From: Bdellovibrio sp.
GTDB lineage: Bacteria; Bdellovibrionota; Bacteriovoracia; Bacteriovoracales; Bacteriovoracaceae
Reading direction: 5' to 3'
Assembly: GCA_020720455.1 (NCBI GenBank)
Contig: DYOQ01000014.1
Location: forward strand, 10,469 to 54,925
DNA: 44,457 nt
Shown piece after piece: positions 7,214 to 13,427 of the stretch. The position numbers were made by a program, and so were the translations under genes. The first letter of the stretch is position 1. Every line of letters begins with the position of its first letter. A model generated the notes under the pieces. The model saw only the letters and a program-made list of their open reading frames with translations. It did not search any database and was not told the DNA's origin.

Positions 7214-10063
7214 ATGAATACACTAAAGTCGCTTTCCCTGATGCTAATAATGCTGGTACCACTTACTGTGGTTTGGGGTAGTGTTGAATCATCTCATTCG
7301 TCATCTGCTTTAAACGAAGATTGTAGGATAAATGGGGGCCCGACCACAAGCAAAGCACTATCTTCGCTACTAAGTTTTGGAAAGGAGTTCGGGGACAGAT
7401 TTCAAAATTCTGCCTTGGATATATTTAACAACGGAAAAAAAATTATCTGGGATGATCCAAAACAGTATTGGGGAGAGCTTGGAAAAGAAAAGTTAGTAAA
7501 AAAAATAAGAAAGGAGTACGTTGACCAGAATCAAATGCTTCAAGATTATTTACGACAAAATGTTATTGTCGAAAGTGACTTAAATAAAATTTCGCAGGAT
7601 GCGGCGAAGAGGATTCTTGATGACGGCATTTTTGGAAGTGATATATCGTCCTTTGATGATTTGAGGGCAAGAGTTGAGCTTTCTGGTTTTAAGGGAGCGT
7701 ACACCTCATCAGTTATAGAAAAAATAATTTTAAAAGAGCTTGAAAGAAACGGTGTTCTTGGTGATCTTCAAGGACTTGCTGAAAAAATAAGTGGTGAGAA
7801 TAAAAAGTGTGTTGATAATGCTCGGGATGGCCAAGAAGTTATAAAGTGCACGAGCGTATTAGAAAGCAACTTGGCAACACAGATAGGAGGGCAGAGGCTA
7901 GAACAAGGGTTATTAGCGTTTGGCAAGTACGCTCCCGCAGGAGATATAAAAGAAAAGGTTGAGCAGACTTATCGTGCGTGTGCGAGCGGATGGTTTAAAA
8001 ATAAGAAGGAACGTAAAGGTAAAGATATCACAGCTTGTGTTGTGAAGTCAGTTTTGTTTGCTTATCGTGAGACATCAACGGCCGAAGCAATGAAAGAGTT
8101 GAATAAGATAAAAACTACGAGTGGAAAAAAACTTGATGATGTAACGAGCAAAAATATAATTCTGGATGCTCTAAATGATCCAAAAGTTAAGGATGAGTGT
8201 AAGTACATTGACGGTATTGTTGGGAAACTATCAGAGGATGAGATTAATAGTCGTTTTGTAAATACAAATGATCTTGCTACGTTAGGAGCGGAATTGAGTG
8301 GTCAGTGTAAAGCGGCATTAACGAAATCGATAGGTGCTCGAATAGTTGCTGTGTCACTTACACAAGATCCAGGAGTGCTAAGTTCGTTTAAGGTGGTTCC
8401 CCAAAGTTTTGTAGATCAAATATTAAATGTAGGTTACTGGCCTTGTATCTCTCTTCAAAAAGAGATAGAACCACAGAAATGCACGGGGTACGTGACACTG
8501 CAAGCGATGAAGGAGATTTCTGTAAAGGAGTTAGAATCAAAGTTAGCAGGATACGGCTTAGGAAAAAAATCTAGTGTGATCTCAAACTACACAGATGTTT
8601 GTATATCTAAAATTGAAAAAAAATTTTTAAATGACATTGAAGCAGATGTTGACTCTGGAAGTCCTGAGCATGCTGTTGTTGGATGTTTAGAGCAAGCCGT
8701 TGCGGATGCTGGCGGCGAGATTTCTAAAGTTGAGTTAGGGAAATATCTAAAGAGTGAAGGTTTTACGTTGCAATATCATCAAAAATTAAGTGAAGCGTTT
8801 GGTAATAAAATAGCAACTGAGACGACTAATTGTTTGCGTTTACAGTTTGTATCGAAAGGTAAAAGAAGATTTAACTCTATTCTTGATTTTCAAAAAGGTG
8901 TTTCTCTAGTTGTTAATTCATGTACAGAGAGTGTCGCTAATAAGATGAGGCCGGAGATATTTAAAAGTACATTAAAATTGGCGATGACGGAATACTATGA
9001 AAAGACAGTAAATGCTATTTTCGATAATGAGTCCAGCAATGCTGTCGAAGATGCTTCTAGATTATTGTTAGCACTAGAAGGATCCGAGAAAAGTGGAAAG
9101 GGAACCCCTCTTGATGAGTCTACAATTAAGAGTATTAAAAAATTTTCAAAAGATATAGTTAGTTGTTATAAGCGGTTTCCAGAAGAGTGTCAGTCATTAT
9201 TGAATAAAGCTATTTTAGATTTATCTAGCAAGAAGAATTTAACTACAAAAGAGCTGACTGGGTTATTAATTGAAACTGAGCTGGGCCGTAGGTTAATAGC
9301 GATGGAGACTAGTGCAAAATTAATTGATGGGATAGAGGTCGCTGGAAAGCGGGCAGGGTTGAATGTTTCCAGAATGAATCTTGAATTATTACTTGATCCA
9401 GTATTGTTAGAAAAAGAGTTTTTCAATAGCTCGAATAAATCATGGAACAAATATCGCGAGCTGATTAAAAAAGCAACTATTGAAAATGTTGATCCAGATA
9501 GCTCAGTTGAGATCCAGCAAAATTTGGCGGATACTCTGTTTGGTGATTATTATAAGTATTATGATATTAGTGGTAAGAAAAAGGATGGGGTAGAAATAGA
9601 TACTAACAACAGCAGTGTGAAATTAATTGATGGGATCATGGGAACTTTTATAGATGCAAAGCTTGGAGAGGAGGTATCTAAGAGCATAAAAGGACATTTT
9701 ATTATTGATGGTGTTGTTTCTCAAACGATTGGCGGCAATCTCTTGTCACTTGAAAAATATACAACATGGGATTTGATTAAGCCTAACGGAGAGGGCGCTC
9801 GGAAATATTTTGTTGATGAGTTCTTATATCTAGGTGTTTCTGGGAATAGTAGTTCATCAAATGAACAGGAAAAAAATAAGAAGCTTACCTCCGAAGTAAA
9901 AAATGCTGTTCTAGTTAGTGGCGCAAAAGGTGTAGGTATTGTAAGTATTTTTAAATCAGTGGTTGGTATTCCTTGGGCAGTGGCAAGTGAGTTTCTTGAA
10001 GCACTTTCAGGAACTGAGATTTCAGGCCAAAAAACGATCGATGGTGGCACAGGAAATCAGTAG
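7214..10063 (+). CDS. Giant exported helical protein with seven cysteine pairs
   Basis: A 949-residue protein with a signal peptide (residues 1-22, cleavage near VWGS) and no further membrane segment. It has 15 cysteines: one at 37, then pairs at 199/212, 256/275, 329/365, 411/423, 463/491, 540/570 and 651/659, recurring every 50-110 residues in helical, Lys/Glu-rich sequence. This suggests repeated disulfide-bridged helical hairpins. The last 290 residues lack Cys and probably form a separate domain. I recognise no family. The ATG has almost no Shine-Dalgarno sequence; TATGAT at 7193-7198 is a possible -10. The gene ends 7 nt from the convergent caspase-like gene. A surface or predation role is only a guess. 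Confidence 0.75.
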   Translation: MNTLKSLSLMLIMLVPLTVVWGSVESSHSSSALNEDCRINGGPTTSKALSSLLSFGKEFGDRFQNSALDIFNNGKKIIWDDPKQYWGELGKEKLVKKIRKEYVDQNQMLQDYLRQNVIVESDLNKISQDAAKRILDDGIFGSDISSFDDLRARVELSGFKGAYTSSVIEKIILKELERNGVLGDLQGLAEKISGENKKCVDNARDGQEVIKCTSVLESNLATQIGGQRLEQGLLAFGKYAPAGDIKEKVEQTYRACASGWFKNKKERKGKDITACVVKSVLFAYRETSTAEAMKELNKIKTTSGKKLDDVTSKNIILDALNDPKVKDECKYIDGIVGKLSEDEINSRFVNTNDLATLGAELSGQCKAALTKSIGARIVAVSLTQDPGVLSSFKVVPQSFVDQILNVGYWPCISLQKEIEPQKCTGYVTLQAMKEISVKELESKLAGYGLGKKSSVISNYTDVCISKIEKKFLNDIEADVDSGSPEHAVVGCLEQAVADAGGEISKVELGKYLKSEGFTLQYHQKLSEAFGNKIATETTNCLRLQFVSKGKRRFNSILDFQKGVSLVVNSCTESVANKMRPEIFKSTLKLAMTEYYEKTVNAIFDNESSNAVEDASRLLLALEGSEKSGKGTPLDESTIKSIKKFSKDIVSCYKRFPEECQSLLNKAILDLSSKKNLTTKELTGLLIETELGRRLIAMETSAKLIDGIEVAGKRAGLNVSRMNLELLLDPVLLEKEFFNSSNKSWNKYRELIKKATIENVDPDSSVEIQQNLADTLFGDYYKYYDISGKKKDGVEIDTNNSSVKLIDGIMGTFIDAKLGEEVSKSIKGHFIIDGVVSQTIGGNLLSLEKYTTWDLIKPNGEGARKYFVDEFLYLGVSGNSSSSNEQEKNKKLTSEVKNAVLVSGAKGVGIVSIFKSVVGIPWAVASEFLEALSGTEISGQKTIDGGTGNQ

Positions 10064-10070
10064 ATGTTTT

Positions 10071-12125
10071 CTATAGGCTTTTTAAAACGGCCAGAGCTAT
10101 TTTTTTATATGCGATTTCATATGCTGAGTAAATTCTCATCGAAGCATTTTCCTTTTCTTCATTTGGGTCATCTAGCTGAGCTTGTTCGGATGATGACATC
10201 TGTTTAGTTTCGAGCTCGATTTCAGCTGACAAGGCAGATATAAGATCAGATTTATATGGTTCTTCTCCGTTATATGCTTTGAGCGAATTTGTGAGATGCT
10301 TGATGTGAGGGTTTTCATTATAGTCAATATTTGAATACATGGCCAATAGATCTTGACTGACTTCTAAATCTGATTTGTGATTGCTTATGAAGGTGTCTCG
10401 GATTGATCTTAGTATATCTTTGTTTTTGTCTGGCGCACTTAAGTAGTCAGCGTATTGCTGGAGTACAGTATTGTTTTTTTCTGAAGTTAATCTTTTTTCG
10501 ATCACTTGGTTTTCAAAATTAGCTCTTATTGTATCGTTTGGAAAGGTGGTGTACTCGGTTAGTTTTAGAGTTTGGATGTTGTCTTGAAGTTTGATGCGTT
10601 CCAGGAGATGCTCGATGCGTTTCTCGTCATTTTTTTCTGATAAAATCTTTTCTTCAATGTCGGATAATACAATGGAACTTTTTACTAAATTGCCAATCGA
10701 AGTATCAATCTCACATCTCGGCCAGTCAGCAACTTTTGAAGGTGAATCTTCAGCAAAAGAGGTTAGGTTTTCACTATCAGAAGAGAGGCAGTAGTGATCA
10801 TGTTGGAGTAACAGTTCGTTAAGTCCTGCCTGTAATCTCGATGCAATTTTTTTATCCTTGTCGTTAGCGAGACCTTGAATGTTCTTAGAAAGTTTTTCAA
10901 GTTCCGTGCTTATTTCCCCACGTTTCATCTTTTTTAATTCATCAGCAGATGGAAATGAAATCCCCATTTCTTGAAGAATAATCTTAGTCTCTTCAAACTG
11001 TTTTTTAAATAGTTCAACGGCATTGTTCTTAATTTTTTGGTATTTGATTAGCAGTAGTGAGATGTTTGTGTTTTCAGAAAAGTTAGTGCCCAAGATGTTT
11101 TTCAGGAATTGTTTGCACTCATCAAGATTTGATATCTGCTGTAGTAGTGCATGAAACTGTCTTAATGTACTTCCTTCTTGCTCTGGTGGATCATTACAAT
11201 CAGTAGTTTTTGCTTCATAATAACAGACATACTTTTTGTATAGTTTAGAAAAAATATCTTCTTGACAGTTTTTTGTATCAGCGAAGTTGCGGACTCGTAT
11301 GTTTTGCTTAGAAGTGTTTGCGTCAGCATAATACTCATTTCCACAACTGTTTTTCAAGTATACAGCTGCACTAGTTGTAGAGATGTTTGCAATTTTTGAA
11401 AGTATACTTTTCATTTTTTTATCATCAGCAGAACGGATCAGCTCTTGTTCCTTGACTAGTATCCCTTCTAAAAATTGATGGTTAGACGCTTTATATTGTG
11501 AGGGCCCAAGATCATGAAATCCAGAGACAAGGGCTAAATTTTGAAAAGAGTCTTTCCAGACACTCTCAACTGTTCCGGGTGAGTTTGTGTAACACCCCCA
11601 CAGGTTGACAGAGCGGACGCTTTCGGCCGTTTCCGGCAATTTGTCTTTGATGGAGTCTATAAAGATCTTTGAAGAGAAACCGCCTAGCGCTCCACTAAAA
11701 CGTCCGCCACCGTGGTGTCCGGATAGGATGATAGATGTAATACCATCGGCATTAGTTGATTGTTTGATGGATGAGAGGTCTTTTTCAAGGTTTATTTTGC
11801 GATTAAGCACAAGGCCATCTCTTTCTGCTGTTTTTGCATCAATCTTCATTTGTAATTGTTGGCAATTTCTGCTGCAGTTATAGTAAGCTTTTTGAATTTT
11901 ATCTATATTATCATCGATTGCCCGAAGTTTTTTTCTTTCTGATATTGGCATTTTTTCAAGAGAGGGAATTATGATTAACTGTTCGCCTCGTTTGATCGCA
12001 GCTTTTTTTGCAGTTTCAATTTCAAGAAGATTGTTATTAATATCGACAAATAAAATAGCAGCATTAGATCTAGTACAAACTACCAACAAAAATATGAACA
12101 GAAATGCATAGTTTGCTTTACCCAT
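10071..12125 (-). CDS. Exported protein with clan-CD (caspase/gingipain-like) peptidase motifs
   Basis: A 684-residue protein with a signal peptide (1-22, ends TRSNA). After a first hydrophobic strand (AILFVDINNN) and a helical insert come two motifs typical of clan CD cysteine peptidases: a strand ending in His-Gly (TSIILSGHHGGG, His137/138) and a second strand ending in Cys (SVNLWGCYTNS, Cys178). A segment FHDLGPSQYKASNHQFL follows that could complete the fold. From about residue 280 the protein is helical and Cys-containing, without a known domain. Motif order and spacing fit caspase, C11 or gingipain folds; peptidase activity is inferred. Its ATG overlaps the upstream stop by 8 nt, so translation is coupled. 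CHAT-like non-peptidase variants are the alternative. Confidence 0.65.
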   Translation of the reverse strand: MGKANYAFLFIFLLVVCTRSNAAILFVDINNNLLEIETAKKAAIKRGEQLIIIPSLEKMPISERKKLRAIDDNIDKIQKAYYNCSRNCQQLQMKIDAKTAERDGLVLNRKINLEKDLSSIKQSTNADGITSIILSGHHGGGRFSGALGGFSSKIFIDSIKDKLPETAESVRSVNLWGCYTNSPGTVESVWKDSFQNLALVSGFHDLGPSQYKASNHQFLEGILVKEQELIRSADDKKMKSILSKIANISTTSAAVYLKNSCGNEYYADANTSKQNIRVRNFADTKNCQEDIFSKLYKKYVCYYEAKTTDCNDPPEQEGSTLRQFHALLQQISNLDECKQFLKNILGTNFSENTNISLLLIKYQKIKNNAVELFKKQFEETKIILQEMGISFPSADELKKMKRGEISTELEKLSKNIQGLANDKDKKIASRLQAGLNELLLQHDHYCLSSDSENLTSFAEDSPSKVADWPRCEIDTSIGNLVKSSIVLSDIEEKILSEKNDEKRIEHLLERIKLQDNIQTLKLTEYTTFPNDTIRANFENQVIEKRLTSEKNNTVLQQYADYLSAPDKNKDILRSIRDTFISNHKSDLEVSQDLLAMYSNIDYNENPHIKHLTNSLKAYNGEEPYKSDLISALSAEIELETKQMSSSEQAQLDDPNEEKENASMRIYSAYEIAYKKIALAVLKSL

Positions 12126-12540
12126 GAGGAGTCCTCTTGGTCTGTTTTTTTTCTTCTTGTTTTTTTAATTTGATAAGCTTTACAAGGTTTTCATTCGGAA
12201 TTTTGGGATACGTCTTGGATAGATCTTCTAAGCTCATGTAGCGAGATCTAGAGTATAACATATCTTTATCGACAGAATCCATGGTTGTTATGTGGGTATC
12301 AACGCCAGCAGTTGCAAAGATATTTTCTCTTTTTTCTATGTATGTTTTTTGGGTAGCGTTGGTTTTTACTTTGTCATTTGTATAAGTTTTGACACCATCT
12401 GATTCTAATTCCTTAACGTCAATATTTGGATCTAGCTGGATGACGTGAATGTTTTGTGATGTTCTGCTCTGTTCAGTTGAAAATGATTGGTTACTGAATA
12501 ACCACAAAAACGAAGATAAAGCTAGATTAAATTTCCACAT
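12118..12540 (-). CDS. Small exported protein coupled to the caspase-like gene
   Basis: The preferred start is ATG 12540 (MWKFNLALSSFLWLFSNQSFS, a good signal peptide) with CAGGG upstream; an upstream in-frame codon at 12567 would add nine residues and spoil the signal. The 140-residue product is polar after cleavage, with many Thr, Lys and Asp, and ends in a basic KKQEEKKQTKR tail. No Cys and no known domain. Its stop codon lies inside the first codons of the caspase-like gene (8-nt overlap). A chaperone, inhibitor or propeptide-like partner is a guess based only on this tight coupling. Confidence 0.6.
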   Translation of the reverse strand: MWKFNLALSSFLWLFSNQSFSTEQSRTSQNIHVIQLDPNIDVKELESDGVKTYTNDKVKTNATQKTYIEKRENIFATAGVDTHITTMDSVDKDMLYSRSRYMSLEDLSKTYPKIPNENLVKLIKLKKQEEKKQTKRTPHG

Positions 12541-12651
12541 AAAATGCCCTGTTACATTGTAGCACATTGGAGATGTTCAACTTAAAAAACTATACGTGGG
12601 AAATTTTGGCCGTTAGAATATGGATAACTGTCAAATTGAATAGGTAGTTAC

Positions 12652-13044
12652 ATGAATGAAAAATTTTTAAGTTGGTTGGAGCAAGCTGCAGAGGATATAA
12701 AATGGGGAGATGATTCCTTGGCCTCTGGTCATTATGCACAAAGTTGTTTTATTGCTCAGCAGATTGCAGAAAAAAGTTTAAAAGCGTTAGGTTTCTTTAG
12801 AGGTTATGATCTTCTCAAGTCTCATTCGTTAGTACAGATTGCGAAAGAGTTGAAAATTAATGGTGAGATTGAAAAAGCTTCAAGACGATTAGATTTGTAT
12901 TATATTTCGACAAGATATCCTGATGCTTTGCCTGATGCTGGTGTCCCAAGTCACTATTTTGGTATAGAACAGGCCGAAGAAGCGATGTTGATGGCAAAAA
13001 TGATTCATGAAAAATGTAAACATGAAATCGAAGGGCATTCTTGA
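12652..13044 (+). CDS. HEPN-domain protein, toxin of a HEPN-MNT pair
   Basis: A 130-residue all-helical HEPN protein (Pfam HEPN, PF05168 type). It has the N-terminal signature of a Trp/Leu-rich helix with AAEDIKWGDDSL, then CFIAQQIAEKSLKAL and SHSLVQIAKEL, and the C-terminal RYPDALPDAG segment common in MNT-linked HEPN proteins. The classic Rx4-6H RNase motif is not obvious; RYPDA occupies the equivalent helix. In such pairs HEPN is usually the toxin and the nucleotidyltransferase the antitoxin. AGGT lies ahead of the ATG. The partner gene begins at the last base of its stop codon. Confidence 0.85.
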   Translation: MNEKFLSWLEQAAEDIKWGDDSLASGHYAQSCFIAQQIAEKSLKALGFFRGYDLLKSHSLVQIAKELKINGEIEKASRRLDLYYISTRYPDALPDAGVPSHYFGIEQAEEAMLMAKMIHEKCKHEIEGHS

Positions 13045-13427
13045 TGTCAATTATTGCAAAATCTATGAAATTTTCTGACCTCACTAAGGTTGATTATGAT
13101 CAAGTTATTTCTGAATTAAGAGAGAAAATTAAAGGACGTGTAGATAAGGCGTATCTTTTTGGAAGTTTTGCTAATAAAACCCACAGAGCAGACAGTGATA
13201 TTGATATAATTTTGATTATGGAAACGACCACCTCGTTTACTAGTCGATCTCAACAATTTGTTGATCTTTTTGACACATATCCGAAGCTTGATATTTTGGT
13301 GTATACACAGCGAGAATTTGACTCAATTCTTACTCAGGAAATTGGGTTTGGAAAAAATATACAATTAAGTCTAAAGAATTTTTACAAGAATGGCTGGGGA
13401 GGTGGGACTCGAACCCACGACCAATAG
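13044..13427 (+). CDS. MNT-type nucleotidyltransferase, antitoxin, overlapping tRNA-Asn
   Basis: A minimal nucleotidyltransferase with the active-site signature GSFANKTHRADSDID (GSx10DxD) and a following strand with a third acidic residue (KLDILVY). Family members can AMPylate the HEPN partner. A TTG precedes it, but ATG 13044 (tgATG junction, AAGGG upstream) is the better start, giving 127 residues. The last dozen codons (GWGGGTRTHDQ) are antisense to the 3' end of tRNA-Asn: the overlap is 37 nt. The natural C-terminus was probably lost or replaced at that junction, which hints at insertion beside the tRNA. Confidence 0.85.
   Translation: MSIIAKSMKFSDLTKVDYDQVISELREKIKGRVDKAYLFGSFANKTHRADSDIDIILIMETTTSFTSRSQQFVDLFDTYPKLDILVYTQREFDSILTQEIGFGKNIQLSLKNFYKNGWGGGTRTHDQ

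Follow-up and report, generated by a model that had tools for sequence, protein, structure and literature searches.

The window analyzed here, a stretch of 44,457 nucleotides, carries a gene for a putative secreted cysteine peptidase with a predicted caspase fold and, overlapping it, a gene for a small exported partner protein. Our preferred reading, to which we assign a probability of roughly 0.55, is that the pair consists of a secreted caspase-fold cysteine peptidase and an exported protein dedicated to it, which would most likely act as an inhibitor ('immunity' protein) or a folding chaperone. The features computed in its support are export (by a heuristic), the fold, conservation of the dyad, near-obligate pairing and correlated divergence. 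A bacterial predator has to secrete destructive proteases without digesting itself, and for such self-protection the literature we searched holds just one pair, made up of Bd3460 and its endopeptidases; the enzyme and partner described here are a second candidate, unrelated to the first and widespread, with dozens of genomes in the phylum carrying it. New in this analysis are the breadth of the enzyme family, the lack of any match to it in family databases, the non-canonical context of its histidine and its near-obligate exported partner.

Predicted fold and conserved residues of the enzyme

The enzyme gene (positions 10,071–12,125, minus strand) is single-copy in its own genome and encodes 684 amino acids from an ATG start. 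By inspection, the N-terminus (MGKANYAFLFIFLLVVCTRSNA^AILF) is a Sec-type signal peptide, placed from the sequence at about residues 1–21 (MGKANYAFLFIFLLVVCTRSN; 12,063–12,125, minus strand) with cleavage near SNA^A. The sequence-only reading had already proposed a signal peptide, and relatives agree with it: a lenient N-terminal hydropathy heuristic called signal-like N-termini in 38 of 39 enzymes and 36 of 39 partners, compared with 171 of 346 background ORFs. We also count the conserved Cys287 and Cys337 in favor of export, as they are compatible with an oxidizing compartment.

A full-length AlphaFold2 model built on a 14-sequence alignment was confident only within the core, and the approximately 400 residues downstream were modeled as helical at low confidence. 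Modeling the core alone (residues 19–300; 11,226–12,071, minus strand) gave a pLDDT of 88.9 and a pTM of 0.87. The modeled elements run strand 1, helix 1, strand 2, an optional helical hairpin, helix 2, strand 3, His137, three short strands, helix 3, strand 4, Cys178, helix 4, strand 5 (Gly202...Pro208), helix 5 and further strands. The hairpin, a coiled-coil insertion of residues 61–106 at the junction of strand 2 and helix 2 (11,808–11,945, minus strand; containing Cys84 and Cys88), is missing from some homologues. The core of clan CD peptidases is a parallel sheet whose strands are ordered 2-1-3-4, with the catalytic His at the end of strand 3 and the catalytic Cys at the end of strand 4, and caspase-7 has a small three-stranded section linking strand 3 to helix 3 (PMC4357240). 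In our model the putative catalytic His137 (11,715–11,717, minus strand), within SGHHGGG at residues 135–141, directly follows strand 3, and the putative catalytic Cys178 (11,592–11,594, minus strand), within LWGCYT, lies two residues after strand 4.

Foldseek comparison of the core with the PDB ranked caspases first (probability 1.00, E-value 5.5e-4, TM-score by target 0.42–0.51) and legumains next, while other folds such as binding proteins and ATCase had far lower probability. Predicted secondary structure and Foldseek matches both agree with the clan CD fold, and the model indicates that the enzyme core is a caspase/haemoglobinase fold. As to the earlier label of 'caspase/gingipain-like', the closest solved folds are those of caspases and legumains and not gingipains. 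We consider it very unlikely that the resemblance is superficial and that the His and Cys are merely structural: TM-scores are moderate (0.35–0.51), E-values reach only about 5e-4 and sequence links to solved structures are lacking, but the top PDB matches are nearly all caspases and legumains, and the order of secondary structure and both dyad positions agree with that fold.

Among viral structures, the top match of the core was BFVD A0A8S5MXG5, an uncharacterized Myoviridae protein (E-value 2.1e-6, probability 1.00); this phage protein of similar fold outscores every PDB match. The other viral matches were mostly weak. Those named as clan CD proteins were a clostripain-like protein and a caspase, both from viruses. 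A search of viral contigs returned no relative of the enzyme family.

Relatives of the enzyme occur in 13 of 143 related genomes, counting the window's own, and 14 aligned sequences share 20–27% identity with the window protein. Glu35, Ala43, Gly47, Ser135, Gly136, His137, Cys178, Trp190 and Gly202 are invariant in this alignment. A scan of genome contigs with the window protein as single query returned zero relatives because it is a divergent family member, whereas the family alignment succeeded as a query. At order level a profile search matched 28 of 129 genomes. Across the phylum, 73 of 369 genomes, spread over 41 of 182 genera and with complete genomes from another family among them, were matched by a core profile; this count takes in weak matches, some of which belong to a second family with the motifs SGHFGG...GCNT. 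Named family records come from Bacteriovoracaceae, Halobacteriovoraceae and Bdellovibrionales MAGs.

To describe conservation we counted residues in 48 non-redundant homologues from this single phylum. Cys178, Ser135, Gly202 and Cys287 are present in all 48, His137 in 47, Trp190, Glu35 and Cys337 in 46 each and Asn30 in 45. Both SGHHGGG and LWGCYTNS are present at the spacing first reported from sequence, and because Ser135, His137, Cys178 and Gly202 are retained in 47–48 of 48 homologues we regard these motifs as beyond chance and as the His-then-Cys dyad of clan CD. The sequence-only reading had left the histidine as His137/138; the homologues single out His137, since residue 138, although His in the window protein, is Asp in 22 of 30 order-level members. 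That reading named a fold other than caspase/haemoglobinase-like, or a His or Cys not kept in close homologues, as grounds to reject it; both checks were made and the reading withstood them. As a separate observation, the enzyme ORF of one relative (L172:4331-6100, plus strand) is broken by one in-frame TGA between its His and Cys parts, reflecting either a decayed gene or a sequencing error.

These counts also bear on whether the enzyme has kept its caspase fold but lost peptide cleavage, serving as a scaffold, ligase-like or binding protein. The non-canonical residues beside His137 and before Cys178 would fit such a role, as would the one homologue lacking His137 (L183), which reads SGEHG, with Glu at position 137 and His one position later. 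We nevertheless judge this unlikely, as both dyad positions are near-perfectly kept across the phylum at only 20–30% identity.

The C-terminal helical region (residues 300–684; 10,074–11,228, minus strand) had been described as unassigned. It is helical in the low-confidence model, as proposed, but the positions of Cys287, Arg322, Cys337, Leu359, Asn368 and Arg402 are kept in 42–48 of 48 homologues, pointing to a conserved helical domain that follows the core and extends to about residue 460. Residues from about 470 to 684 are poorly conserved.

Placement among clan CD families

In many clan CD enzymes the residue two before the catalytic Cys is acidic or Gln. In our family this residue is mostly Leu, Trp or Met, where caspase-7 has Gln184 (PMC4357240). 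A Gly beside the catalytic His is structurally conserved in every clan CD family (PMC4357240), whereas position 138 is mainly Asp here and Gly stands at 139 in 41 of 48 homologues. Judged from sequence, the replaced Gly after the His, the hydrophobic residue before the Cys and the lack of a profile link to C14 or C11 count against our preferred reading.

The enzyme has zero matches to Pfam, NCBIfam, PADLOC or PHROGs models, and PDB sequence searches gave no meaningful chain match. Neither C14 (PF00656) nor C11 (PF03415) was matched in Pfam, and profile-profile comparison gave probabilities of 1.8% and 0.1%, respectively. Neither the window protein and its relatives nor the 14 members of alignment A3 had a Pfam match to CHAT, C13, C25 or C80, and CHAT was not found in 59 genomes of the phylum. 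The fold and dyad together make the enzyme clan-CD-like with no described family assignable. We conclude that the family, compared by profile with C11 and C14 among described families, is undescribed and without a match in current family databases, and that it gives the clan CD fold a further lineage, one in which the sequence next to the catalytic His is unusual.

Caspases (C14A; caspase-7 and caspase-3) share with the predicted enzyme their fold, strand order, three short strands and placement of His and Cys. Unlike them, the enzyme is exported, has a long C-terminal helical region, a partner gene and no identified p10 subunit, carries SGH-D/N-G-G in place of HG and hydrophobic residues before the Cys, and lacks a Pfam C14 match. 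Legumain (C13), the second-ranked fold match, is likewise exported with a helical region after the core; it differs in lacking any sequence match and in having its autoinhibitor as a C-terminal prodomain, whereas the partner here acts in trans if at all. Orthocaspases (C14B) resemble the enzyme in their His-Cys dyad and SGH context (FYFSGHGS), and no C14 protein was found in the window's genome or in the family mates tested. Clostripain (C11) is another bacterial caspase-fold peptidase, but its motifs are WNHGSGW and DACLM where our family has SGHDGGG and GCYT; C11 occurs in other genomes of the phylum and was not found in the window's own.

Profile comparison linked our family at 95.8% probability to the second SGHFGG...GCNT family (L041-L045, L185 and L145:3988-5481), an undescribed set of exported proteins mostly of 500–800 amino acids. 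The two share the motifs N..S..E, SGHxGG, GCxT and GFxxxGP and occur in the same phylum, but differ in their C-terminal region, and no partner-family gene was found beside genes of the second family.

Pairing of the enzyme with a small exported protein

Directly upstream of the enzyme gene lies the partner gene (12,118–12,567, minus strand), which the sequence-only reading overlooked. It encodes 149 amino acids as called, although the start is more likely Met10, near 12,540. The two ORFs overlap by 8 nt (12,118–12,125, minus strand), and a Shine-Dalgarno-like AAGAGGA lies inside the partner ORF at 12,132–12,138; by sequence, these features suggest translational coupling of partner and enzyme. 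Many relatives have ATGA-type overlaps of 4 nt. Promoter and terminator scans did no better than on shuffled sequence. The partner had no match in Pfam, NCBIfam, PADLOC or PHROGs scans, but BLAST against the neighborhoods of relatives found it repeatedly upstream of the enzyme. Judged by its family alignment, the partner consists of an export signal, then a variable linker, then a conserved domain that looks helical and has the C-terminal motif R(D/E), [WM]D, [DE]-K-D-[ILM]-[LF], K-Y-P; the mature protein is about 90–125 amino acids long.

In 45 of 51 loci the partner and enzyme genes are neighbors on one strand, with the order reversed in four. At order level 27 of 30 loci have them adjacent, the partner lying upstream in 23 and downstream in 4 and always sharing the strand of the enzyme. 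The three exceptions are an enzyme at a contig edge whose partner gene ends another contig (G046), a locus with a weak partner-like ORF just downstream (G078) and one with only an unrelated-looking 78-amino acid ORF (G059). In further loci of the phylum the partner is directly upstream in 17 of 20, mostly with an overlap of 4 nt or smaller, and G116 shows the arrangement as well. That adjacency persists despite reversed order suggests that the products act together, as opposed to merely sharing an old operon. Mere synteny can be rejected, since 29 of 36 wide loci contain the partner, against 4 for the next commonest neighbor family, mostly from one closely related group. A mirror-tree comparison of 39 enzyme-partner pairs gave a correlation of pairwise distances of r = 0.82, a value reached by 0 of 2000 permutations and owed partly to shared ancestry.

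Two partner-like genes without an enzyme (L137:4475-4777 and L138:6480-6803) adjoin a leucyl-tRNA-synthetase-like gene in two MAGs. They may be partners kept after loss of the enzyme or products of incomplete assembly, and unless the latter holds they suit an inhibitor. Two relatives carry a gene for a papain-like protein (NTCLYVASTGAME ... WHVILIVGYDD) 46 bp ahead of the caspase-fold gene (in L053, upstream of 3646; in L054, upstream of 695).

Proposed role of the partner and neighboring genes

In Bdellovibrio bacteriovorus, the periplasmic protein Bd3460 is co-transcribed with a secreted DD-endopeptidase that it binds and inhibits, and its loss causes the predator to damage itself (PMC4686830). 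There a secreted enzyme and a small exported protector are encoded together in a predator (PMC4686830), an arrangement that the conserved adjacency of a small exported protein to our enzyme at 45 of 51 loci resembles. The proteins are unrelated in sequence, Bd3459/Bd3460 being a serine DD-endopeptidase and an ankyrin-repeat protein, and the Bd3460 gene follows its enzyme gene whereas our partner usually precedes. By this analogy we favor an inhibitor, then a chaperone, with a substrate less likely.

We propose that partner and enzyme would be made in that order from overlapping genes and both exported by Sec. The partner, made first, would bind the folded enzyme in the periplasm of the producer, most likely as an inhibitor or else as a folding chaperone, and the peptidase would become active only once the partner parts from it, for example on release toward prey or another outside protein. 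There its His137/Cys178 dyad would cut a protein outside the cytoplasm. Catalysis, inhibition, place of action, target and any role in processing prey or the envelope are what we infer from the computed features. The wider proposal, a phylum-wide and so far undescribed two-component secreted system of Bdellovibrio-like bacteria in which a caspase-fold peptidase is checked by an exported immunity protein as self-protection for a protease of predation or digestion, we hold tentatively, at somewhat below even odds.

A less probable alternative, though one to be taken seriously, is that the partner is an export or folding chaperone, or a detached propeptide, needed for peptidase maturation and not an inhibitor protecting the producer. 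In its favor, the exported partner is mostly made before the enzyme, to which an overlap of 4–8 nt couples it, both gene orders occur, and most tandem copies, too, have one partner for each enzyme, but the orphan genes in two MAGs would be odd for a dedicated chaperone.

Gasdermin operons pair a caspase-fold protease with a linked substrate gene. The same holds for MaOC1 and its antitoxin (PMC7935541), and by that precedent the partner could be a substrate, a small secreted pro-protein cut to yield an active peptide or structural subunit. The variable linker ahead of the conserved part would suit cleavage, yet it has no conserved cleavage-site-like motif across the family, and the conserved part resembles a compact helical domain of the kind one would expect to bind; we regard a substrate as improbable. 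A bacterial gasdermin was rejected given the export and mature size of the partner, and a defense system was rejected because a PADLOC match is absent, the proteins are exported and a mobile context was not seen.

Convergent with the enzyme gene and ending 7 bp from it is a gene for a 949-amino acid protein with a signal-like N-terminus (7,214–10,063, plus strand), which belongs to no Pfam family and was matched just twice, both times partially, across 116 related genomes. Overlapping ORFs (12,652–13,427, plus strand) encode a HEPN domain protein and then a nucleotidyltransferase-fold protein; they run divergently from the partner-enzyme unit. As MaOC1 cleaves an antitoxin (PMC7935541), we weighed a link between this pair and the enzyme and set it aside because the enzyme is exported. 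The nucleotidyltransferase-fold protein has PADLOC matches, and the two genes are a HEPN/MNT-type toxin-antitoxin pair.
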